This document shows, one piece after another, positions 1,415 through 62,775 of a DNA stretch of 64,000 nt. Every line of letters begins with the position of its first letter. Position 1 is the first letter of the stretch. A program made the translations under genes and the position numbers. The stretch comes from Syntrophobacter sp. SbD2 (GTDB taxonomy: Bacteria > Desulfobacterota > Binatia > UBA9968), in contig CAMDBU010000007.1 in NCBI GenBank assembly GCA_945889495.1, positions 1 through 64,000 of the forward strand, given 5' to 3'. The notes below the pieces were generated by a model, which saw only the letters and a program-made list of their open reading frames with translations, searched no databases and was not told the DNA's origin.

Positions 1415-2608
1415 ATGAGAATGGCCGCAAAGAACGCAAAGGGCACAAAATCGGAATTGTTGATTACTGTAGCCGTTGCTAGGTTCCGCGCGGCGCTATT
1501 TGTTTTGCTCGCTGTCTTGGCTTTACCATCAGCATCACTGTTCGCGGCCGATAGTAAACCGGGTTGGCAAGCGCAGTGGGACAAGACCGTGGCCGCGGCG
1601 AAGAAAGAGGGACGGCTCAATCTCTACGTCGGCCGCTACGGCAGCGAGCCGATGCTCAACGAGTTCCGCAAGGAGTTTCCCGAAATAAAAATTTCCAGCA
1701 CCAACGGTGCCGGCAACTCCCTGGGTACGCGCATCGTCGCGGAGGCGCGCGCCGGCGCCATGCTCGCCGACGTTTATAGCGGCGGCGCGGTGACCAATTA
1801 CGAGATCCTCTACAAAGCCAAAGCGCTCGACTCGATCAAGTCGGCATTGATACTGCCCGAGGTGGTCGACGAGTCGAAATGGTACGGCGGCAAGCACCGC
1901 TATAACGATGCCGAGCAAGAGCATGTGTTCATCTTTATTGCCAATCCGACCGCGGCGAGCATCTATTTCAACACCCAACTGGTGCAGCCCAAGGAATTCA
2001 AGTCCTACTGGGATCTGGTCCAGCCCAGGTGGAAAGGCAAGTATGTCTCCCAGGAGCCCACCGGCACCGGCATCGGACCGTCGTTGACGTTTTTCTATTA
2101 CAACCCCGATCTCGGCGCGGAATTTCTGCGCAAGCTGTTCGTCGACATGCAGCCGGTTTTTTCCCGCGATCGGCGCCAGATGACGGATTGGTTGGCGCAG
2201 GGTAAGTTTGCTTTGTGCATGGGCTGCCGCGACTCCGAGCGGGCCAATAAGCAGGGGCTGCCGGTGGACGAAATGGATATGGTCGATTGGAAAGAAGGGG
2301 CGCATATTTCTTCCGGCGGCGGCTCGCTTAGCTTGATCAAAGGCGGTCCAAACCCCAACGCGGCCAGGGTCTTTATCAACTGGCAGCTCTCCCGGCGCGG
2401 CCAGTTAGCGGTGCAAAAATATCCCGATCTCTACAACGAAGAGCCACCCAATTCGCGGCGCATCGATATTCCCAAGGACATGCTGCCGGTAGGGAGCCGG
2501 CTGGTGGAGGGGCGGCGCTATTACGACTTCTCCGATCCCAAGCATTCCGACATGACACCGATCTTTCAGTTGGCCAAGGAACTCATGAAAGGACGTGAAG
2601 GTAAATAA
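1415..2608 (+). CDS. ABC transporter substrate-binding protein (paralog 2 of tandem triplet)
   Basis: Signal peptide ...FVLLAVLALPSASLFAAD; strong similarity to the 2611..3738 product (KEGRLNLYVGRYGSEP/LLNEFRKEFPEIK); the first codons lie in a GCAAAGAACGCAAAG repeat, so the start is uncertain. Confidence 0.82.
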   Translation: MRMAAKNAKGTKSELLITVAVARFRAALFVLLAVLALPSASLFAADSKPGWQAQWDKTVAAAKKEGRLNLYVGRYGSEPMLNEFRKEFPEIKISSTNGAGNSLGTRIVAEARAGAMLADVYSGGAVTNYEILYKAKALDSIKSALILPEVVDESKWYGGKHRYNDAEQEHVFIFIANPTAASIYFNTQLVQPKEFKSYWDLVQPRWKGKYVSQEPTGTGIGPSLTFFYYNPDLGAEFLRKLFVDMQPVFSRDRRQMTDWLAQGKFALCMGCRDSERANKQGLPVDEMDMVDWKEGAHISSGGGSLSLIKGGPNPNAARVFINWQLSRRGQLAVQKYPDLYNEEPPNSRRIDIPKDMLPVGSRLVEGRRYYDFSDPKHSDMTPIFQLAKELMKGREGK

Positions 2609-4310: not shown

Positions 4311-4359
4311 ATCGACAAGTCCTTTTTGTGATCTTTGCGTTCTTTGCGGCCATCCATTC

Positions 4360-10743: not shown

Positions 10744-10784
10744 GGAGGGGAGGTGGAGTGATGGAGTATTGGATTGATGGAGTG

Positions 10785-11786
10785 ATGGGTGTTCGGAAGA
10801 GACTGCAAATTTTTATTTGTCTGCTGGTGATCGGTCTTGCCGCTGGAACGTCATTCGCCCAGGAGAAGCGCAATGTCCGCATGGTCTTCGTCAGTCTGGC
10901 TTGGAATAGCGAGATTCCCTTTCGCGTGGCGTTGGCGCGCGGTTACTTCAAGCAGCAGGGGTTGCAGGTGGAGCCGATATTAATCGGCGGCGGGCCGGCC
11001 GCACTGTCGGCGTTGATCTCTGGCGAGGTCGATTTCGCCAGCATCGGCGGAGCCCAGGCGATCTTTCGCGGTAAATCCCGCGGCCTCGACGTGACGATCA
11101 TCGGCTGCATATCGGGCACAACCAATTACATGCTGCTCGGCAACAAGCAGACCCGCACCGTGGAAGATTTGCGCGGCAAGGTGATTGGCGTCACCGGCGC
11201 GGGCACTTACTCGGAATTTGCCGTCAAGGCGTTTCTCCGCAAGCATAATCTCAATCCCGACAAGGACGTGGTCCTGCGCGCGATTGGCGGCACGGTGCTG
11301 CGCGCGGCGGCCATCGAGAAAGGCATCATCGCGGCGGCGCCGTTTTCCACCGAAGATGGCGTGCGCTTGATGCGCGCCGGTTATGCCGCCATCAGCAATA
11401 TGAGCGAGTCCTTGGGCATCCCGCAGAATATTCTGGTCACGCGCAACGAAGTGCTCGACAAATATCCCGAGACCAGCAAGCGTATGCTCAAGGCCTACAT
11501 TCAAGGCATGCAGCTGGCCAAGTACAACAAAAAAGAAGCGATCAAAGCCGGTTTCGACGCCGGCTTAAAAGGCGATCCGGACATCGTTAGCGCGGCTTGA
11601 AATCTCTATTCCGGCGGTCTGCAAGGCGACTTGTCGGTGGCATTGCCGGGGCTGCAACAGATGCTTGACGAAGATATCCGTACCGGCCTGGTCGATAAGA
11701 ACTTCACCATCGACCGGGCGATCAACGACCGGATTTTGAAAATCGCCCAGCAGGAGCTGCGCGCCGAAGGCAAGTTGAGGCAGTAG
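10785..11786 (+). CDS. ABC transporter substrate-binding protein (NMT1/TauA-like) interrupted by in-frame TGA at 11598-11600
   Basis: Tracked ORF 10740..11600 ends in ...GDPDIVSAA*; the same frame continues NLYSGGLQGDLSVALPGLQQMLDEDIRTGLVDKNFTIDRAINDRILKIAQQELRAEGKLRQ*, matching the C-terminus of the adjacent paralog; N-terminal codons before 10785 lie in a TGGAGTGATGG repeat. Confidence 0.75.
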
Positions 11787-16725: not shown

Positions 16726-17748
16726 TTGCGAATGAGTCACTTCCGTTCGGTTCTTGTCTCTGTGGCTTCGCTACTTATCGGCATTGCCCAGTTTCCCGTC
16801 GCTTCGGCGCAAAGCAAAATCACCATCGGCTACGCCGCCGTCAGCCCGCGCACCACGCCGCTCTATCTGGCCCAGGAGCAGGGGATTTTCGCCAAGTACG
16901 GTCTCGATCCCAAGATCGTTCTGGTGCGGGCGGCGGCGTCTTTGGTGGCGCTCTTGGTCTCCGGCGAGATGGAAGTGGGATACACCGGCGGCACATCAGT
17001 GTTGGGCGCGGCGGGGCAGGGCTCCTATTTGAAAATTCTCTCATCGATCTCCAGCACGTTGACCCATACCTTGGTCGCCCATCCGAACTTCAAGCGCGCC
17101 GAAGAACTGCGCGGTAAGCGCTTCGGTATTCAAAATCCCGGCGGCACCACTTGGATCAATACGATCTTGGCCTTGGAGCATGTCGGTCTGGATTATAAGC
17201 GCGACAACATCAACTTGTTGGCCATCGGCGATTCGGTGCTGGTCGGCCAAGCGTTGGAAGCGGGCAGGGTCGATGCAGCAGTGTTGGACGGCGCCCTGGT
17301 GCGTCGGCTGCGCGCCAAAGGTTTTACCATCATCGCCGAGCTCCAGCCGGCCAAGATTCCCTTGCTCAGCCAAGCGATCGTGGTGTCGCCGGAGTTTTTG
17401 CAAAAGCGCGCCGACATCGCCGAGAAATTGCTCATGACCCTGGTTGAAAGCCTGGCCTATAGCATGGCGCCGGCCAACAAAGCGGTGGTGATCAAAACCA
17501 TGATGCGGCGCTTTCAGATCAACGATCCGGCGGTGGCCGAAGAGGGCTATCAGGATTATTTGAGCGGTGTCGAGCGCCGGCCGATTCCCCGGGTGGACGG
17601 CATGCGCAACGTCAGTCGGCTACTGAGCACGCTCAATCCGAAGATCGCCGGCGTGAAAATTGAAGAGCTGATCGATGGGCGGTTGATTCGCAAGCTCGAC
17701 GAGAACGGCTTCATTGACAAGATGGCGGCGAATTATGGGCTGAAGTAG
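16726..17748 (+). CDS. ABC transporter substrate-binding protein (NMT1/TauA-like)
   Basis: Signal peptide; KITIGYAAVSPRTTPLYLAQEQGIFAKYGLDPKIVLV. Confidence 0.87.
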   Translation: MRMSHFRSVLVSVASLLIGIAQFPVASAQSKITIGYAAVSPRTTPLYLAQEQGIFAKYGLDPKIVLVRAAASLVALLVSGEMEVGYTGGTSVLGAAGQGSYLKILSSISSTLTHTLVAHPNFKRAEELRGKRFGIQNPGGTTWINTILALEHVGLDYKRDNINLLAIGDSVLVGQALEAGRVDAAVLDGALVRRLRAKGFTIIAELQPAKIPLLSQAIVVSPEFLQKRADIAEKLLMTLVESLAYSMAPANKAVVIKTMMRRFQINDPAVAEEGYQDYLSGVERRPIPRVDGMRNVSRLLSTLNPKIAGVKIEELIDGRLIRKLDENGFIDKMAANYGLK

Positions 17749-17760
17749 GATCGGATTTTT

Positions 17761-17821
17761 AACCACGAAAAACACGAAAGACACGAAAAAAGATTTTCCG
17801 AGTTTCGTGCCTTTCGTGGTT
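17761..17821. repeat. inverted short-period repeat AACCACGAAAAACACGAAAGACACGAAA / TTTCGTGCCTTTCGTGGTT
   Basis: Inverted arms read directly; similar element at 21303-21376. Confidence 0.8.
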
Positions 17822-20235: not shown

Positions 20236-20263
20236 ACGGCGACAAGATGTTGTTAAGTTTTAA

Positions 20264-20380
20264 TCTAATATTCCCCGCTGCTTGCGGCGGGCACAATTAA
20301 ATGGGGTTTCCAAAGGGGGCGAGCATCCCCTTTGGTCGCGAGCGGGGTTCATACCCCGATCGCGAAATGCCAGGTTGATT
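20264..20380. repeat. 117-bp three-hairpin dispersed repeat, copy A
   Basis: By eye 3 mismatches out of 117 versus 25418-25534; contains CCAAAGGGG-gcgagcat-CCCCTTTGG and TCGCG-ag-CGGGG-ttcata-CCCCG-a-TCGCGA. Confidence 0.9.
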
Positions 20381-20431
20381 GAACCGGAGTTCTCAGTAGC
20401 CGTTAAGCACAATATTTGAAGAGAGGTATTT

Positions 20432-21211: not shown

Positions 21212-21302
21212 GGCGTGTTACCTCGCCTTTGCTAGTTATAAACCGCAGCTTAGCACAAATCTCGGCGAAACTAAGCCAGTTCGCGATTCATCGGATTGGG
21301 GA

Positions 21303-21376
21303 TTAACCACGAAAAACACGAAATACACAAAAAATGAATTGCCGACTTTCGTGCCTTTCGTGTTTTTCGTGGTTAA
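21303..21376. repeat. inverted short-period repeat TTAACCACGAAAAACACG... / ...CGTGTTTTTCGTGGTTAA
   Basis: Inverted arms read directly. Confidence 0.8.
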
Positions 21377-21452
21377 ATCCGATTCCGAAACATTCCTACC
21401 GTCTGTGTTCTCTGTGCCCACTGTGGTGAGTGAATCTTCCGTTTTTAGAAAC

Positions 21453-23900: not shown

Positions 23901-23979
23901 GTTTCTAAACAGTAAGGAGTCAGTAGTAAGGAGTCAGGAGAAGAAGATTTCGGATCCGAATCTCCTTATTACTTACTCC

Positions 23980-25137
23980 TCACTCCTTACTTAATCCCCC
24001 AGCATTGAGTTTAACGATCTCCAAAACCATTTGCGCCGAGAGGTAGAGATCCTTCAGATCGAGCCATTCGTTGACCGTGTGGATCTCGCGCATGCCGGTG
24101 CCGAGGTTGGCCACCACCAGCCCTTTTTGATTGAGCACATTGGCGTCGCAGCCGCCGCCGGTGGCGCGGGTTTTGACATCAAGATTGAGGTTGCGCGCCG
24201 CCGCATGGACCAACTGGACGATGGGCGCGCTCTCGGGCACGTCCATGCGGTCGTAGTCGCGCTCGATCTTGGCCTCGACCCGCGCCTGGTGATGTTTGCC
24301 ATCGAGGTCTAAATAATATTTCGCCGCCGCGTCTTCCAGGCAGCGCTGCATATGTTCGGTCTGCTGTTTGAGCTTGTCCGAGTCATGGCTGCGTGCCTCG
24401 CCCTTGAGGATCACTTGATTGGGCACGATGTTGACCGCCATGCCGCCCTCGACCACGCCGATGTTGGCGGTGGTCTCATGATCGATGCGGCCGAGCTTCA
24501 TGTTGGCGATGCCCTCGGCGGCGACTTTGATGGCGTTGATGCCCTTCTCCGGGCAGACCCCGGCGTGGGCTTCTAGTCCGTGAATGCGAAACTCCATGCG
24601 GTTGGCCGCCGGCGCCTTGGTGAACAAAAAGCCCACCGAATCGCTGTCGAGCACCAGGCCGGTGCGTGCCCGCAGGCTATTGATGTCCAGGCACTTGGCG
24701 CCGATCAGACCGGCCTCTTCGCAGATGGTAAAAATCACATCGATGGCCGAGCAGGGTAGGTTGTTTTCTTTCACTACGCGCAACACTTCACAGATGATCG
24801 CCACGCCGCTCTTGTCGTCGCCGCCAAGTACCGTGGTGCCGTCGGTGCGCAGGACATCGCCGTCGAGGATCGGTTTGATGCCTTCGCCCGGCACCACCGT
24901 GTCCATGTGCGCCGAGAGCAGTAGGGCTGGAGCGTCGTTCGAATTACCGCGAAACTTGGCGATCAGATTACCGACATTGCCGCCGACCATTTCGCCGGCG
25001 TTATCGATAGACACGTCGGCGCCCAGTTCTTCGAGCTCGCGTTTGAGCCGCATGGCGACGTCATACTCGCGGCGCGACAGGCTGTCGATCTTGATTAGTT
25101 CGATGAGAAAGTTTTTCAACCGTTCTTGATTAATCAC
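23980..25137 (-). CDS. M20/M25/M40 family peptidase (PepT-like)
   Basis: Start adjusted to GTG25137 with SD ggaggag; LLLSAHMDTVVPGEG, LGGDDKSGVAIICEVL, ICEEAGLIGAK. Confidence 0.87.
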   Translation of the reverse strand: MINQERLKNFLIELIKIDSLSRREYDVAMRLKRELEELGADVSIDNAGEMVGGNVGNLIAKFRGNSNDAPALLLSAHMDTVVPGEGIKPILDGDVLRTDGTTVLGGDDKSGVAIICEVLRVVKENNLPCSAIDVIFTICEEAGLIGAKCLDINSLRARTGLVLDSDSVGFLFTKAPAANRMEFRIHGLEAHAGVCPEKGINAIKVAAEGIANMKLGRIDHETTANIGVVEGGMAVNIVPNQVILKGEARSHDSDKLKQQTEHMQRCLEDAAAKYYLDLDGKHHQARVEAKIERDYDRMDVPESAPIVQLVHAAARNLNLDVKTRATGGGCDANVLNQKGLVVANLGTGMREIHTVNEWLDLKDLYLSAQMVLEIVKLNAGGLSKE

Positions 25138-25417
25138 ACTGGACTCCTCCGCTATAGTGGCGGGGAAAGACACGCACAGATTTGTCTGGTGCCGTGCTGC
25201 CGATGCGGGTTCAATCTGCCATAGTTCGGGGACCAAAGCCAAGCCGCTAGCGAGGGATTTTACCGTAGAAGTTTCCGCGCATCAGCTGCCATCTTCGATG
25301 CGCTTGATGAGATGGGTATATAGCAGTTTGGCGATGATCGACGTCAATTGCGTGTCGCCGCCCCAACGGAAATTCGCGTCGGACTTGGGCACGGCGACAT
25401 CAAATCCAATTCTTGAA

Positions 25418-25534
25418 TCTAATATTCCCCGCTGCTTGCGGCGGGCGCAACTAAATGGGGTTTCCAAAGGGGGCGAGCATCCCCTTTGGTCGCGAGCGGG
25501 GTTCATACCCCGATCGCGAAATGCTAGGTTGATT
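25418..25534. repeat. 117-bp three-hairpin dispersed repeat, copy B
   Basis: By eye 3 mismatches out of 117 versus 20264-20380, same orientation. Confidence 0.9.
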
Positions 25535-25544
25535 CGAATCGTGC

Positions 25545-27427: not shown

Positions 27428-27600
27428 AAATTTGGCTCCTTTGCCGCTAGTTCTTGTCTTTTCAATAGCTCACTAGCAGGGCGGAGTGCAAGTCAATGGA
27501 TAATGGATAATTGACAATGGATAATGGGGGGAGGCTCGCTTCGCATCGCTCTCTTCGGATCGCCTTGGCGGTGTTGTTTGAACGATGGGCGGCGTGGTAG

Positions 27601-27756
27601 GAAGCCAATGAAACGCTTTATCGGATGGAGCTTCTCCATCAAGGCGGGTACATTGACGCGGAATGCTTCAACTCGATCGACGCCGATAGTAAGGAACTGA
27701 TCAAACTGCCAACCGCTATCGTAGAGACGGCAAAACTCGCAAAACGCTCCGCCTAA
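27601..27756 (+). pseudogene. C-terminal remnant of a four-helix-bundle / S23 (23S rRNA intervening-sequence) protein
   Basis: Frame EANETLYRMELLHQGGYIDAECFNSIDADSKELIKLPTAIVETAKLAKRSA* directly after an in-frame TAG; flanked by inverted ATTATCCATT repeats. Confidence 0.7.
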
Positions 27757-27779
27757 TTATCCATTATCAATTATCCATT

Positions 27780-29225
27780 ATGCCAAAATCGTTACGCACT
27801 TTTCTCGAAGATTTTCGCCGGCAATACCCGAGCGAGGTCGTTAGTATCGCCAACTCCGTGAACCCGCTGACCTACGACATCACTGCTATCGTCAAGCAGT
27901 TGGGAGCGCTGAAGAAATTCCCGGTGCTGGTCTTCGAGCGTCCGCTCAACGCCCATGGCCGGGCGACCGACATGAAAGTTGTCATGAGCGCGGAGAATTC
28001 GCAGAGGAAGATTCAAGTGGCTTTGGGGTTGCCGGCGGTCATGGATCGCGCCGAGATGGCGCGGGAATGTTTGCGCCGGGAGGCGGGGAAGATCGGGCCG
28101 GTGATCGTTAGCCGAGATGCGGCGCCGGTGAAGGAGATTGTTCAAACCGGCGACGCCGTCGATCTCTACGAGCTACCGCTGCTCAAACATCACGAGATGG
28201 ACGGCGGGCCTTATATCGATCTGTCGAGCGTCGCCCGGGATCGCAGTTCTGGCGTTTACAATTGCTCCTATCACCGCATGGAGGTGAAGGATCGCAATCA
28301 CACCGGCTTCCTGATGACGCTGCAACATATGTGGCGCGTCTTTCGCGGCCACGAAGAGGCCGGCGAGGAGTGTCCGGTGGCTACCGTGATCGGCCACCAT
28401 CCGGCCTATCAGATGGGTGCTTGCTACGGCGGCAAGTTCGAGATCAGCGAGTACGATATCATCGGCGGCTACATGCAGGAGCCGCTGCGGCTGACGCCTT
28501 CCGAGACCTGGGGCGAGCGCTTACTCGTGCCGGCGGACGCCGAGATCGTCATCGAAGGCGCTTTGCTCCCCGGCAAGCGCATGGTCGAGGGACCGTTCGG
28601 CGAGGTGAACGGCTATCTTGGCGTGCAAGGCTACCAGCAGTCGGCGCACTATGAAGTCCGCGCCATCACCCGGCGCAAAGGCGCGCTGCACACATCGATC
28701 CTCACACCGGAAGGGGACAAGCCATGGATGGATTTGGCCCGGGAAGGCGCCTACCTGCGGCGCGCTCGCGAGGCGGTGCCCAATGTCGTGGCGGTGTGCA
28801 CCAGCGGGCGGCACGCGCTGCTCAACGTTTTCATCTCGATGAAAAAAATGTCCGAAGGCGATCCCGGACGCGCCGCCGCCGCGGTGCTGACCTGGGACTG
28901 GTGCAAGAACGTGTTTGTCTTCGACGAAGACATCGACGTCTACAATCCCACGGAAATCCTCTGGGCCGTCGCCACCCGGGTCCAGCCGCACCTGCAAGTG
29001 TCGATCATCAAGGAGATCATGCGTGGCAGCTTGATCGATCCATCCATGGTCACCCCGCGCAAGACTTCGGCGATGATCGTCGATGCGACCAAACCGTTGG
29101 ACCGTCCGTTCTCGCCGGTGTCGAAATGCCCCGACGGCGCCATGGCGAGGATAAAGTTAGAAGACTTCGTGCCGGGCGAAGTCTTGCAGCATATTCCCAT
29201 CGACCGGACGACCTATTGGGCGTAA
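27780..29225 (+). CDS. UbiD family decarboxylase
   Basis: RTFLEDFRRQYPSEVVSI; ARDRSSGVYNCSYHRMEVKDRNHTGFLMT; FDEDIDVYNPTEILWAVATRVQP. Confidence 0.9.
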   Translation: MPKSLRTFLEDFRRQYPSEVVSIANSVNPLTYDITAIVKQLGALKKFPVLVFERPLNAHGRATDMKVVMSAENSQRKIQVALGLPAVMDRAEMARECLRREAGKIGPVIVSRDAAPVKEIVQTGDAVDLYELPLLKHHEMDGGPYIDLSSVARDRSSGVYNCSYHRMEVKDRNHTGFLMTLQHMWRVFRGHEEAGEECPVATVIGHHPAYQMGACYGGKFEISEYDIIGGYMQEPLRLTPSETWGERLLVPADAEIVIEGALLPGKRMVEGPFGEVNGYLGVQGYQQSAHYEVRAITRRKGALHTSILTPEGDKPWMDLAREGAYLRRAREAVPNVVAVCTSGRHALLNVFISMKKMSEGDPGRAAAAVLTWDWCKNVFVFDEDIDVYNPTEILWAVATRVQPHLQVSIIKEIMRGSLIDPSMVTPRKTSAMIVDATKPLDRPFSPVSKCPDGAMARIKLEDFVPGEVLQHIPIDRTTYWA

Positions 29226-29355
29226 TTGCTAGGATAAGTTCAAGCCGTTCAATACGCTCCAGTCGTTCAAGCTGTCTGGGAAGTTCCTTCTCTCAGCGTC
29301 GGAAAGCGACTTGACTGGCTTGAACTTTTGAACCTTTGAACCAATAGTACTTCCC

Positions 29356-30393: not shown

Positions 30394-31506
30394 ATGGACC
30401 AAGAAATCATCGCGCGCTTGATAAACCGCATCACCGCCGCCGGCCTCGACGCCATCGTCGCTCTGTCGCCGGAAAATGTCACCTATGTGTCCGGTTTCGT
30501 CGTGCCGTCGCAGTCGCTGATGCGCTGGCGCCATGCGGCTTGTATCGTTACCTCGGATGGGAAGATTTCCATGGTTGCCATCGACATGGAGGCGACGACG
30601 GTCAAAGCCCATGCTGGCATCGACGATTTGCGCATCTATCGGGAATTTAGCGACGATCCGATGGATAAGTTGGCTGAAGCGGTGAAAGACTTAAAGCTCG
30701 ATCATGGCAAGGTTGCCATCGAGATGGAGTTTCTGCCGGCTAAGGATTTCGCCACGCTGCAAAAGAATCTGCCGAATGTGAACTGGTCGGCGGCCGACCC
30801 GATATTTAACAAGGCGCGCCAGATCAAGACGGCGGGGGAGCTGGCTTTGCTCCGCTCGCTCAGCAAGCTCACCGACAACGCCATCGGCACGGCGCTCCGT
30901 TCGGCCAAGATCGGCATGAGCGAGATGGAGCTGGCTGGCACGTTGCTGACAACGTTGTTCGCCGGCGGCGCTGAGAGCTACAAGCTGATGATCATCGCTT
31001 CGGGCGAGCGCAGCGAGTTTCCCAATGTCGGACCGAGTGCGCGCAAGTTGCAGCATGGCGATATCATCCGCATGGAGATTTTCGGCCAGAAGAGCGGTTA
31101 TTTGACCGGCGTCTGCCGTACCGCGGTGGTCGGCGACGCGACGGCGGAGCAGTATAAGATTTGGTCCAATCTGATCGAATGCAAATATCTGGTGTTGGAG
31201 TTAATCAAGCCGGGGGCGAGCTGCCCGGAGATCTATCGCAAGTTTCTCGAAAAGTTCGGCCAGCTGGGTTTCGATCCGATCAGCTTCGTCGCTCATGGCA
31301 TCGGCCTGCATCTGCACGAAGAGCCCTACATGGGACGTTACGGCAACGAGATTGTCGAAGCCGGGATGGTCGGCGCCTTCGAGCCGTTGGTTTACATCCC
31401 CGGGCGCTTCGGCATGCAGAATAAAGATATGTTTTGCGTCACTGACAAGGGCTGCGAGCTGCTGTCCGATGTGACGCCGACCGATACGTTGTTGAGAGTT
31501 GCTTAG
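30394..31506 (+). CDS. M24 family (Xaa-Pro) peptidase
   Basis: Creatinase-type N-terminus; ISFVAHGIGLHLHEEPYMG. Confidence 0.88.
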   Translation: MDQEIIARLINRITAAGLDAIVALSPENVTYVSGFVVPSQSLMRWRHAACIVTSDGKISMVAIDMEATTVKAHAGIDDLRIYREFSDDPMDKLAEAVKDLKLDHGKVAIEMEFLPAKDFATLQKNLPNVNWSAADPIFNKARQIKTAGELALLRSLSKLTDNAIGTALRSAKIGMSEMELAGTLLTTLFAGGAESYKLMIIASGERSEFPNVGPSARKLQHGDIIRMEIFGQKSGYLTGVCRTAVVGDATAEQYKIWSNLIECKYLVLELIKPGASCPEIYRKFLEKFGQLGFDPISFVAHGIGLHLHEEPYMGRYGNEIVEAGMVGAFEPLVYIPGRFGMQNKDMFCVTDKGCELLSDVTPTDTLLRVA

Positions 31507-31619
31507 AAAAATTAGGTTCGAGAGATAATCGCGCCAAGCACGCAAAGAACGCCAAGACAATCGGTCAATAATTTTTTGCTTGGCGAGTTTGGCGGTCTTT
31601 GCGCGTGAAACACACATTC

Positions 31620-32819: not shown

Positions 32820-32912
32820 AGGCACTTCCGTCATACCGGCGCAGGCCGGTATCCAGCCGGGGCTGGGTGGGGAAGACCGAACCTGGATTCCCGCTTGCGC
32901 GGGAATGACGGA
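32820..32912. repeat. REP-like facing palindromes
   Basis: gtcataccggcgcaggccggtatccag ... cctggattcccgcttgcgcgggaatgacgg. Confidence 0.8.
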
Positions 32913-37292: not shown

Positions 37293-37392
37293 GGTGTTGC
37301 GCCAGTAATCGAAGAAGCAACTGAGAATCGGATGATTGGCCGCAAAGAACGCAAAGGGCACAAAGTAGTTCCCAAACTCAAATCCGGGGTAG

Positions 37393-39353: not shown

Positions 39354-40544
39354 ATGTTGGACGCAGGTACTGCTAAGAAATTAATCGATAAGAACTTATC
39401 CTACGACGAGGTCAAGCGGCTTACCGTGAAGCTGGTGCAGCACGCCAGCCCCCAGACCCGATTGCTCGAAGCCGAGCCCCAGGTGCTGGCGCTGATCAAA
39501 GACGTGGTCATGCCGGAGTTGCAACAGTCGGGGCTGAAGCCGTTCATCGATAAGATGGGCAACTTGGTGCTGATCATCAAGGGGCGCCAACCCCAGGGCC
39601 GCTTGATGCTGGTGGGCTACGCTATGTGCGCGGCGCCGAGCACCATGAAAAATCCCTACTCCGGTGAGATCGTCGATGGCGCGCCCTATAAACTCAACGG
39701 CGAATGCGTCTGGGGGCGCGGCGCCTGCGAGCAGAAGGGCAGCCTGGCCGCCATGATGGCGGCGGTGAAGTTCATCGGCACCAATAATGTCGAGCTGCCC
39801 AGCGATCTTTATTTCGTCGTCAGCACCGCCGGCGAGACCGGCAAGCATGATTCGCTCGTGCATGTGCTCGATCATGACAACGTCCAGGCCGAGTGGTGCG
39901 TCATCGATGGTCCGCCGGAGATTCAGTTGGGCAACAAAGGCCGAGTCGACGTGCTGGTCACGGTGAAGGGCAAACAGGCCCATAGCAGCCGCCCCTGGGA
40001 GGGTGTCAATGCCATCGACGGCGCCATGCGGGTGTTGGAGCGCTTACGGCCGCTGATGCCGGTGCCGGAAGATAAGCGCCATCCGGAGTTGGGCAACGTG
40101 AGCCTCACCACCAACGCCATCGAAAGTTTCCCCAAGGCTACTCATACAATCCAGAGCGAATGCCGCATCATGTTCGACCGCCGCCTGCTTCCCGGTGACG
40201 ACGCCGGCCAGGCGATCGAACAGATGAAGCAGGCGATCGGCACAATAGAACCCTTCGAGGTTGTCGTTGAAGCGCGCGATTTTATGTATCCCAGCGAAGT
40301 GGCGAAAGACGCCGAAGTGGTGCAGGTGCTGGAGCAGGGGATCAGGACGATGCTCAACTACGAGCCGAAGTTTTCTTATTCAACCGCCGCCAACGACACC
40401 GGCCTGTTCAACCATCGCGGCATCCAGGCGATCAACTACGGCGCCCGCGACATCCGCTTTCAACATACCGATCATGATTTGGTGGCGTTGAACAACGTTT
40501 TTAACGCGGCCAAGGTTTTTGCCTTTTTAGGCATTCATCGTTAA
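39354..40544 (+). CDS. M20 family metallopeptidase
   Basis: VWGRGACEQKGSLAAMMAAVKF; GKQAHSSRPWEGVNAI; NDTGLFNHRG. Confidence 0.85.
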   Translation: MLDAGTAKKLIDKNLSYDEVKRLTVKLVQHASPQTRLLEAEPQVLALIKDVVMPELQQSGLKPFIDKMGNLVLIIKGRQPQGRLMLVGYAMCAAPSTMKNPYSGEIVDGAPYKLNGECVWGRGACEQKGSLAAMMAAVKFIGTNNVELPSDLYFVVSTAGETGKHDSLVHVLDHDNVQAEWCVIDGPPEIQLGNKGRVDVLVTVKGKQAHSSRPWEGVNAIDGAMRVLERLRPLMPVPEDKRHPELGNVSLTTNAIESFPKATHTIQSECRIMFDRRLLPGDDAGQAIEQMKQAIGTIEPFEVVVEARDFMYPSEVAKDAEVVQVLEQGIRTMLNYEPKFSYSTAANDTGLFNHRGIQAINYGARDIRFQHTDHDLVALNNVFNAAKVFAFLGIHR

Positions 40545-40625
40545 AGAAATCTGTTCCAGACGTTCCAATCGTTCCAAAGGTTCCATCCGGAATTACGGTT
40601 GGAAGGATTGGAACATTTGGAACAG

Positions 40626-41321
40626 CTATTTCGCCTCGTGACGCTGCAACATCCTCAAATAATATTCCCAGAGATTGATCATCGCGTCGGGCCGGTAGAT
40701 GCGCTTTCGCTTTAACAGCGCGTCGGCGTCGGTGGCCCAGGTGAAGGGGCCGGTCATGGATGCGGCTTTGACTTGGGTCTTGGCGCTATGCTCGAGCAGC
40801 ACGCCGCGGATGCAGGTCTCTTCGATGTTCGGCCCGGCGACGACGATGCCGTGGTTGCGCAGCAGCACGATCTGGTGCTCGCCCAATAACTTCGCCACCG
40901 AGCTGCCTTGATCGGCGGTGACAATCAAGTCAGAAGATTCCTCGAACTTGTCGATGGCCGGTGGATAAAAGGCGCAGCTTAAGTTGGTGATCGGCAGGAT
41001 CGATTTGTCCGACGACGCGATGATCGTCGAGTAGGTCGGGTGGGTGTGAATGACGCACTGGATGGCGGGATTGGCGCGGTAGATTTCACTGTGGATCGGG
41101 AATTCGTTGTGCCGTTTGCGCTTGCCGGCCAGAGTGTTGCCTTCGAAGTCGATCAGCACCATGTCGTCGGCGGTGGCTTCTTCCAAGCCGATGCCCGAGC
41201 CCTTGATCCAATATTGATCCGGCCGTTCGGTGCGCGCCGAGACATGGCCGTAGATCATGTCGTTGTGCCCCTGCATGGCCAGGATGCGGCACGCCAGGGC
41301 AAGTTTTTCTTGAATCGTCAT
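40626..41321 (-). CDS. class II aldolase/adducin family protein
   Basis: NDMIYGHVSARTERPDQYWIKGSG; VIHTHPTYSTIIASS; VLLRNHGIVVAGPNIEETC. Confidence 0.9.
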   Translation of the reverse strand: MTIQEKLALACRILAMQGHNDMIYGHVSARTERPDQYWIKGSGIGLEEATADDMVLIDFEGNTLAGKRKRHNEFPIHSEIYRANPAIQCVIHTHPTYSTIIASSDKSILPITNLSCAFYPPAIDKFEESSDLIVTADQGSSVAKLLGEHQIVLLRNHGIVVAGPNIEETCIRGVLLEHSAKTQVKAASMTGPFTWATDADALLKRKRIYRPDAMINLWEYYLRMLQRHEAK

Positions 41322-44505: not shown

Positions 44506-44687
44506 AGATCGCCTTTCCAATTGCTCAAGTTCGCCGCCGTTTATAACACATGGAGTTGGCTTTGCGAAATACGTGGCAAGCGGTTGAATGGCCGCAAAGA
44601 ACGCAAAGTACCCGGAGTTTTCGACCGATGGCATAAACTCCATCGCCATGTTAATTCTCCTCGAAATAAACCTCTTGGAGTCAATTC

Positions 44688-46262: not shown

Positions 46263-46287
46263 CACGGGTTGCGCGGTTCCAACCTTC

Positions 46288-46375
46288 CGTCATGCCGGCG
46301 CAGGCCGGCATCCATCTTCGATCGAGCTGCGACATAAAAGCCCTGGATTCCGGCCTGCGCCGGAATGACGGATCG
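46288..46375. repeat. REP-like facing palindromes
   Basis: gtcatgccggcgcaggccggcatcc ... cctggattccggcctgcgccggaatgacgg. Confidence 0.8.
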
Positions 46376-56070: not shown

Positions 56071-56191
56071 GGGAATGGCCGCAAAGAACGCATAGGGCGC
56101 AAAGGGAGATTTATTCGTCCCACCTTCGTTTCGTCCTACGAAAGTAAACGCAAGGAAATGATCTGGACAACGAAGAGGTCTCCCGATATCC

Positions 56192-56270
56192 GTCATACCC
56201 GCGAAAGCGGGTATCCAGGCTAATTCGCCAGTGAACAAACCTGGATTCCCGCCTGCGCGGGAATGACGAA
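56192..56270. repeat. REP-like facing palindromes
   Basis: gtcatacccgcgaaagcgggtatccagg ... cctggattcccgcctgcgcgggaatgacg. Confidence 0.8.
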
Positions 56271-61878: not shown

Positions 61879-62004
61879 TGATTGGGTTCCTCGGTGAAGA
61901 CGAAGAAGAGATTTTTTCGCGCCAAGCACGCCAAGGGCGCCAAGTTCGGAATTAAATTTCTTTCCTTTGCGGCCTTGGCGTACTTGGCGCGAGATATTCC
62001 GAGA

Positions 62005-62775
62005 CTACAGGAAGCACACGCCGCCGTCGACGGCGACGGTCTGGCCGGTCATGAAGTCGCTCAGCGGCGAGGCGAGGAACAGCATGATGCCGACCAAGTC
62101 CTTCGGTAGCTGGACCCGTTTCAAAGCGCGGTCGGACAAACGGGCGCCGCGCATCTTGAGAACTTCTTCGGTGGGGTTTTCTTCCGACAGAGTCGAGCCC
62201 GGCGCGATGGCGTTGACGTTAATGTTATCTTCGCCGACTTCCCGCGCCAGGGTGCGGGTGAAGCCAATGACACCGGCCTTCGACGTCACGTAATGGATCC
62301 GCCCGGCGCTGCCATTGAGCGCGGTGCCCGACGAGATGTTGATGATCTTGCCCGACTTCTGCTGGCGCATGGCCGGCAGCACGGCGCGGCTGCAAAAGAA
62401 CAACCCCTTGAGGTTGACTGTCATCATGCGGTCCCATTCCGCTGGATCGATGGTGTCGATGCCGCCGCGGTTCATGGGGATGGTCGAAAAGATCGCCGCG
62501 TTGTTGACCAGCACGTCGATGCGGCTGAATTTATCCAGCGCCAGCTTGGCCATGTCCTTGGTCGACTGCTCGTTGGCGACGTCGACTTTGGCCGCCAGCG
62601 CTTTGCCGTCGAACTGTTTGACCACTTCGCCGGCGACTTTCTCCGCCGCCGGCGCGTCGATGTCGGCGACGATGACCTTGGCACCCGCCTCGGCGAAGCC
62701 ATGGCAGTAGGCGCGGCCGATGCCATGGCCGCCACCGGTGACGATGACGACTTTATCTTTCAGTCCTTGAATCAT
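62005..62775 (-). CDS. SDR family NAD(P)-dependent oxidoreductase
   Basis: VVIVTGGGHGIGRAYCHGFAEAGAKVIVADID; VNNAAIFS; IHYVTSKAGVIGFTRTLA. Confidence 0.93.
   Translation of the reverse strand: MIQGLKDKVVIVTGGGHGIGRAYCHGFAEAGAKVIVADIDAPAAEKVAGEVVKQFDGKALAAKVDVANEQSTKDMAKLALDKFSRIDVLVNNAAIFSTIPMNRGGIDTIDPAEWDRMMTVNLKGLFFCSRAVLPAMRQQKSGKIINISSGTALNGSAGRIHYVTSKAGVIGFTRTLAREVGEDNINVNAIAPGSTLSEENPTEEVLKMRGARLSDRALKRVQLPKDLVGIMLFLASPLSDFMTGQTVAVDGGVCFL

Follow-up and report, generated by a model that had tools for sequence, protein, structure and literature searches.

The window, a 64-kb stretch of DNA from an uncultured Binatia bacterium with a 5.64-Mb draft genome, carries intergenic hairpins, not assigned to a strand, whose arms consist of short tandem words. 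A sequence-only reading had picked out seven such structures, all of which we found again to within a few bases. Two belong to a family with the 9-nt unit CACGAAA-NN. The first (17761–17821; RNA-folding z-score −5.4) starts 12 nt past the stop codon of an NMT1/THI5-like gene (16762–17748, +) and is directly preceded by an outer ATCGGAT bracket; the second (21291–21388, previously given as 21303–21376; z = −7.6) has the paired outer bracket TCGGATT/AATCCGA. A 9-nt GTTCAA-NNN hairpin at 29236–29327, with outer repeats reaching about 29345, begins 10 nt past the stop of a ubiD-like gene (27780–29225, +), and a 9-nt GTTCCA-NNN hairpin (40551–40625; z = −7.9) fills the gap between two convergent genes (39354–40544, +; 40626–41321, −). 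At 31530–31612, 3′ of the stop of an M24 peptidase gene (30394–31506, +), lies a 9-nt CGC(C/A)AAG-NN hairpin with mixed cores and the weakest fold in the window (z = −2.5), and a 9-nt CGCCAAG-NN hairpin (61917–61992; z = −8.5) with TTCGGA at the start of its loop stands 3′ of an SDR gene (62005–62775, −). The 7-nt period is represented by a AGTAAGGAGTNAG hairpin with apex TTCGGATCCGAA (23911–23991), which overlaps the 3′ end of a gene at 23980–25173 (−), and by an eighth hairpin, absent from the sequence-only reading: a TTGGATT-family element, TTTTGGATTTTGGATT / AATCCAAAATCCAAAA, at 200–299, the right arm of which matches Nostocales plasmids at 91–100%. Its unit is of the same kind as TDNGATT, the unit of the Nostoc P6b stem discussed below. 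Folding z-scores of the window elements range from −2.5 to −8.5, and no Rfam family matched above its gathering score within the window.

Arms of this kind also occur singly in the window: CCGCAAAGAACGCAAAGATCACAAAA at 4320–4348 (−), for which no partner was detected, CGCAAAGAACGCAAAGGGCACAAAA at 1426–1455 (+), CGCAAAGAACGCAAAGGGCACAAAG at 37341–37370 (+), which follows an ATCGGAT, and the two-unit arm CGCAAAGAACGCAAAG at 44593–44622 (+). At 10754–10800 (+) an 8-nt array, TGGAGTGATGGAGTATTGGATTGATGGAGTGATGGG, stands alone with TTCGGAA after it, and 7-nt GGATAAT arrays oppose each other at 27505 (+) and 27776 (−) in what amounts to a long-loop version of the hairpins (27495–27790, no strand assigned). 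Other repeats share the window. A dispersed repeat of about 123 nt, without an Rfam match here, lies at 20258–20381 (+) and 25413–25535 (−); it recurs dozens of times in this genome and its congener G002 (mostly 94–98% identical), in G003 (mostly 85–95%) and at one listed place in G004. REP-like non-periodic hairpins of the CGTCAT..CCGGCGCAGGCCGG..ATCCA type, which as a group are not near gene ends, are found at 32827–32912, 46286–46372 and 56191–56268; another non-periodic family, CTTCGACAAGCTCAGGACGAACGG, occurs outside the window (C5:4069). A TIR-domain gene (PF13676; 29356–30333), possibly a signalling or defence gene, immediately follows the GTTCAA hairpin.

Periodic hairpins are abundant and form families

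Genome statistics cover 1.66 Mb assembled from stretches, in which a simple hexamer gene finder called 1,478 genes (84% coding) and left 1,142 gaps (251 kb). An ungapped finder (score ≥14) returned 139 strong inverted repeats in these gaps and just 10 beyond them, whereas nine of ten dinucleotide shuffles gave none and the tenth gave one. The arms of 58 of the 139 were periodic at p ≤ 0.01, compared with 1.4 expected from a column shuffle that preserves pairing, with periods of 9 (24), 8 (17), 7 (15) and 6 (2). When pairing was ignored, exact 3×5-mer tandem arrays in the gaps numbered 14, 38, 36 and 99 at periods 6, 7, 8 and 9, respectively, and 12 at period 14 (twice 7), with 0–2 at periods 5 and 10–13 and 0–1 per period in shuffled gaps. 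Together with the folding z-scores, these comparisons place the hairpins far above their frequency in shuffled sequence. The shared architecture first noticed in the window holds far more widely than could be seen from there, with a unit length of 6–9 nt in place of the 7–11 nt originally proposed.

The claim that the sequence differs at every locus is only half right: it stands at the small scale of a window, and even here the elements at 17761 and 21303, at 31530 and 61917, and at 29236 and 40551 share families. Genome-wide, the loci fall into about a dozen multi-copy families, such as CACGAAA-NN, CGC(A/C)AAG-NN, GTTC(C/A)A-NNN and TGGAGT-NN. Words repeated at 9 nt include CACGAAA, CACGAAG, CACAGAG, CACAAAG, CGCAAAG/CGCCAAG and GTTCCA/GTTCAA; those at 8 nt include CGCAAAG, here spaced by 1 nt, and TGGAGT; those at 7 nt include AGTAAGGAGTNAG, CAGTT, TTGGATT and GGATAAT; and TCGTG recurs at 6–7 nt. 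A 19-nt CACGAAA arm sequence had 100 genome matches with at most one mismatch and the GCCAAG array pattern had 61, the larger families reaching dozens of copies. Combinations of spacers, for example AA,GG and GG,AT, recur across loci, a sign of descent. Composite arrangements were also seen: CACAAAG hairpins whose loop contains a CGCAAAG arm beside TTCGGA/TCGGA (G000:C28:7109-7252 and G000:C32:36720-36861, G000 being the host genome), rows of differing arms in one orientation (G000 C2 near 10592, C12 near 5260) and at least seven CACGAAA arms crowded into 900 bp (G000:C81:13815-14701).

Arms follow a grammar and share a bracket

Each arm consists of 2–4 copies of one word comprising 4–7 conserved and 1–3 variable nucleotides. 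Arrays of 9-nt units had two (126), three (82) or four (1) units, those of 8 and 7 nt seldom more than four, and CACAGAG arms from IMG/VR contigs had exactly three in 96 of 101 cases under a search pattern that required at least three. Arms measure about 25–30 nt irrespective of period (medians of 24.5, 26 and 28 nt at periods 7, 8 and 9), and loops are mostly 10–80 nt. Polarity is fixed, the word lying in the 5′ arm for 98 of 101 family assignments in this genome and 47 of 51 elsewhere; the 5′ arm is purine-rich in 74 of 86 hairpins. With respect to the gene, the best-conserved arm lay on neither side preferentially, in small numbers. Cores pair between arms, whereas spacers vary and do not pair: in diverse lineages 24 of 54 spacer positions paired (21.8 expected), and in this genome spacers matched between arms 45 times, compared with 63.4 ± 5.5 for randomly re-paired arms. 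Descent from a founder whose spacers were already mismatched could account for this deficit, so we do not claim active avoidance of pairing.

In this genus, many arms, across families, are bracketed on one or both sides by TTCGGA in a single orientation. TTCGGA/TCCGAA was present in 40 loops (4.9 expected), with the order arm–TTCGGA–loop–TCCGAA–arm in 40 of 47 loop occurrences; the loop motif marked 36 of 89 periodic hairpins, of periods 7, 8 and 9, and none of 17 REP-like hairpins. Just outside the arms, TTCGGA occurred 51 times in the same orientation (5.4 expected) and 3 times in the opposite one. Across 244 arrays of nine families, TCGGA was found within 25 nt upstream of 97 (chance 3.5%) versus 1 in the opposite orientation, and within 20 nt downstream of 98 versus 18. 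The upstream copy is common with the CACGAAA, CACAGAG, CACAAAG and CGC(A/C)AAG families and rare or absent with TGGAGT, GTTC(C/A)A and CACGAAG. Congeners G002 and G004 carry TTCGGA in the equivalent position, and the bracket was not evident in Bacteroides or in other sampled genomes of the phylum. In host lineage L244, TTTAAAAGATT brackets both CACAGAG and CGCAAAG arrays, and AAAACCTTTT appears to serve as the bracket of a third lineage, L203; with these two besides this genus, support for lineage-specific brackets as a general rule comes from few lineages.

We considered whether TTCGGA might be a DNA-uptake or HIP-type motif. Such motifs occur in genes too, and this candidate was rejected because the density of TTCGGA is fivefold lower in coding DNA (0.13 per kb) than in gaps (0.64 per kb).

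Elements turn over between congeners and share words across phyla

Among 93 gene/ortholog pairs with congeners, neither side carried a recognised family in 50; 27 had one in this genome only, 7 in the relative only, 5 the same family and 4 different families. For the 36 sites of this genome with a congener ortholog, 27 orthologs lacked a recognised family, 5 carried the same and 4 another. These counts are approximate, because a fixed word list misses families such as the CCCTC-type hairpin that occupies the M24 peptidase site in G002. That site carries CGCCAAG here; in G003 its arms are of the CACAGAG and CACGAAG types. Across Binatia, the gap behind ubiD holds GTTCAA, TNNGATT, CCCTCNC, TCGTG, TTGAATT-type or other arrays, or none; the metagenome-assembled genome (MAG) CoA_1_bin.89 (L031) has the GTTCAA-NNN family at the site equivalent to 29236 in the window. 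The nearest named relatives of the window's ubiD-like protein are from Binatia/‘Deltaproteobacteria’ MAGs. G002 has an element of the AGTAAGGAGTNAG family at the equivalent of 23911–23991. No clean pair of empty and filled sites was found among congeners, because these are only about 80% identical and their gaps cannot be aligned. At the site of the 17761 element, G002 has a non-periodic hairpin, TGTAGGGGCCGACCTGTGTGTCGGCCC (L169, G002:C47, 12063–12123), and a similar GTAGGGGCG..CGCCCCTAC type is present at several other loci.

CACAGAG-NN ×3 had a patchy distribution: of 297 genomes in the phylum, 21 carried it, with up to 113 matches; the reversed pattern gave none in element-bearing genomes and six matches in one element-free genome. 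The same array was found in Bacteroides ovatus/finegoldii and in Gemmatirosa; IMG/VR contigs contributed at least 120 stretches with it, and words recur in Bacteroides, Nostocales, Gammaproteobacteria and elsewhere. Arms of the CGCAAAG, AGTAAGGAGTNAG and TTGGATT families match plasmids of Sphaerospermopsis, Thiodictyon, Nostoc, Tolypothrix, Pseudomonas silvicola and others; the matches in P. silvicola and one Nostoc plasmid are long CAGGAGT tandem arrays, not capped hairpin arms. Another array-rich genome, G126 (L189–L202), contains, within 280 kb, many copies of long dispersed elements that have TGATGAACTCGTAAAAAGTC / GACTTTTTACGAGATCATCA at their ends and REP-like hairpins inside.

RAYT-type mobilisation was rejected for lack of local support: of the genome’s own three Y1 transposase loci (PF01797), none is flanked by a periodic hairpin; the association of arrays with Y1_Tnp at phylum level was weak (20/21 versus 192/276 genomes, p = 0.01, uncorrected for relatedness or genome size). 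MITE-type target-site duplication did not show in a comparison of flanks, in which direct matches around elements averaged 3.78 against a null of 3.73 and none reached 7 nt. GTAG/GGAG lay within 10 nt of the hairpin foot in 19 of 86 cases, a raw count without a chance level.

Hairpins concentrate behind stop codons

Among gaps of at least 80 bp, the share with a periodic hairpin was 15.4% for convergent, 9.1% for co-directional and 2.9% for divergent ones. Gene 3′ ends were within 15 nt of a periodic hairpin in 44% of cases versus 34% under random placement, and 5′ ends in 12% versus 25%, that is, farther away than expected. In annotated Bacteroides DNA, a 9-nt element starts 11 nt past the gmd stop, and further elements follow shortly after a DUF4248 gene and after an IS3 transposase gene. 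In B. ovatus the gmd–fcl gap is at 96278–96351 of record NZ_CP081918.1, and three 7-nt elements are at 646, 61688 and 182554.

The position at gene 3′ ends upholds part of the original suggestion of a shared function such as transcription termination. A stable hairpin behind a gene, one feature of an intrinsic terminator, is present, but the U-tract directly after the stem is not (at least six T in 9 nt in 5.7% of cases versus 2.4% of controls), which disfavours intrinsic termination. A Rho rut-like YC spacing was dropped as a candidate because a 7-nt core almost always holds YC on one strand.

More broadly, the hairpins could be functional RNA 3′ ends, either terminators or mRNA 3′ stabilisers, in which the repetitive stem provides a robust, strong, bidirectional hairpin and any long stem would serve. 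Their location behind stop codons, depletion from divergent gaps and strong RNA folds agree with this, as do the Bacteroides arms described below, which are much better conserved than synonymous sites, and the interchange of whole classes at a single site, comparable to that in the Nostoc trnL P6b stem (PMC4476775). Besides the missing U-tract, however, classical bidirectional terminators exist separately in the genome (for example, C4:55391 and C29:29745), many sites are empty in congeners, and the function of a stem need not produce identical successive words, fixed polarity or words shared across phyla. As a full account of the class we regard this as rather unlikely.

An element inverted as a unit in Bacteroides

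Of the elements in the gmd–fcl gaps of B. ovatus and B. finegoldii, one has as its right arm exactly the left arm of the other. Once the element is un-flipped (read from the printed sequences), 62 of 64 arm positions are identical, compared with 74% at gmd third codon positions; mirrored arms combined with such identity indicate that the element was inverted as a unit and that its sequence is strongly conserved. For this single species pair, the conservation suggests a function at that site. Template switching between inverted arms can invert the intervening segment (PMC8604942, PMC8794818).

The sequence-only reading had offered slippage plus inversion, or templated repair, as the generating mechanism. 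On this idea, replication slippage in situ would make the arms and template switching between them (quasipalindrome correction) would keep them alike, with no copying between loci. The short period of the arms fits, hairpins are known to arise and to be homogenised by template switching (PMC8794818, PMC8604942), and the Bacteroides flip is the inversion between relatives that such correction predicts, in one case. The 9-nt arrays, however, end at three units and lack the open-ended spread of unit number typical of slippage. Arm copying would also make spacers match, but they match less than in re-paired arms, and homogenisation at variable positions was not seen. Neither does the model explain fixed polarity, or why words and spacer combinations are repeated across dozens of loci and other bacterial families. 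On the unit cap and the unpaired spacers we reject slippage with quasipalindrome correction as the origin, and polarity and the words in distant phyla speak likewise against slippage plus inversion as generator; in-situ generation without copying is thus improbable. Templated repair fares better as a maintenance process, for which the whole-element flip speaks, although it is not wholly supported.

Equally improbable is that the arrays would be binding sites for sequence-specific nucleic-acid-binding proteins, with cores as sites, NN as spacing and TTCGGA as a partner site: conserved cores with variable spacers, fixed direction and spacing, and the annotation of Geobacter multicopy heptanucleotides as putative global regulator sites (PMC2700814) would fit, but a dozen words per genome would require as many proteins, periods of 7–9 are off the helical phasing of B-DNA and a 3′-end preference is unusual for regulator sites.

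A proposed dispersed class of hairpin cassettes

We read the hairpins, with a probability of about one half, as small non-coding dispersed cassettes forming a family of families, which would be copied, maintained by template switching and sometimes kept as 3′-end RNA structures. High copy number, recurrent spacers, patchy distribution, turnover at sites, words shared across phyla, the bracket, the unit cap, polarity, the 3′-end rule and the Bacteroides flip all favour this reading. Families may spread by copying both inside a genome and from one lineage to another, entering short gaps 3′ of stop codons, by a process that would leave no target-site duplication and would be akin to REP elements or to other copying by single-strand or template-switch routes. 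Template switching between arms would then keep them complementary and at times flip the element, and some copies may become useful RNA 3′-end hairpins that selection retains. The cassette reading leaves the likeness of successive units unexplained.

A stronger version, which we put forward tentatively as possible though doubtful, is a cross-phylum class of mobile hairpins, each arm a 2–4-fold 6–9-nt word of fixed polarity within a host-lineage bracket common to many families, spread as well as written by an undescribed machinery that would recognise or provide the bracket and stop the array at about 27–30 nt. If true, Nostoc heptad stems, Geobacter heptanucleotides, TAACTGA repeats and many unannotated environmental hairpins would be one dispersed class with testable rules, raising the questions of what copies the hairpins, why the array ends at about 27–30 nt and why families share a lineage bracket (TTCGGA). 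If some copies act as 3′-end structures, they would be a renewable source of bacterial transcript ends.

Relation to known repeats

No paper on the class as a whole was found in the open-licence literature, and searches with the literal words returned no bacterial-repeat paper there. The nearest published relatives are the P6b stem of the Nostoc tRNA-Leu(UAA) group I intron (PMC4476775) and the multicopy heptanucleotides of Geobacter (PMC2700814). The P6b stem consists of seven-nucleotide complementary repeats of Class I or Class II; the region has repeatedly been swapped in place for another class, and Class II variation falls mostly at unpaired positions (PMC4476775). A repeat-built stem and class replacement at one place are thus shared, but P6b is one cyanobacterial intron site with variable repeat number, whereas here many families with capped units and lineage-specific brackets occupy many intergenic sites. 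The class 3 multicopy elements of Geobacter metallireducens, five tandem heptanucleotides MTYCTGA, many of them intergenic, are likewise drawn folded back on themselves; they were read as regulator-binding sites, and the accessible part of that source describes no period 8/9 families, unit cap, bracket rule or cross-phylum words (PMC2700814).

REP/REPIN elements and their RAYTs are similar in being short, dispersed, intergenic, high-copy hairpins without target-site duplication, but the hairpins described here have periodic arms of many families and flank no Y1 transposase in the genome. Template-switch quasipalindromes share two known outcomes, inter-arm homogenisation and segment inversion (PMC8794818, PMC8604942), yet denote a mutational process rather than an element class and do not explain shared words and brackets. 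TAACTGA repeats of Beggiatoaceae, Cyanobacteria and Bacteroidetes also place a 7-nt word in distant phyla, with no evident mechanism of transfer; unlike the hairpins, they are direct repeats mostly upstream of start codons and essentially without an inverted partner (PMC4679880). Simple sequence repeats and cyanobacterial-type heptamer arrays (CAGGAGT; P. silvicola, Nostoc plasmids) have similar heptamer words, but such arrays are long and open-ended, in contrast to the 2–4 units of paired arms.
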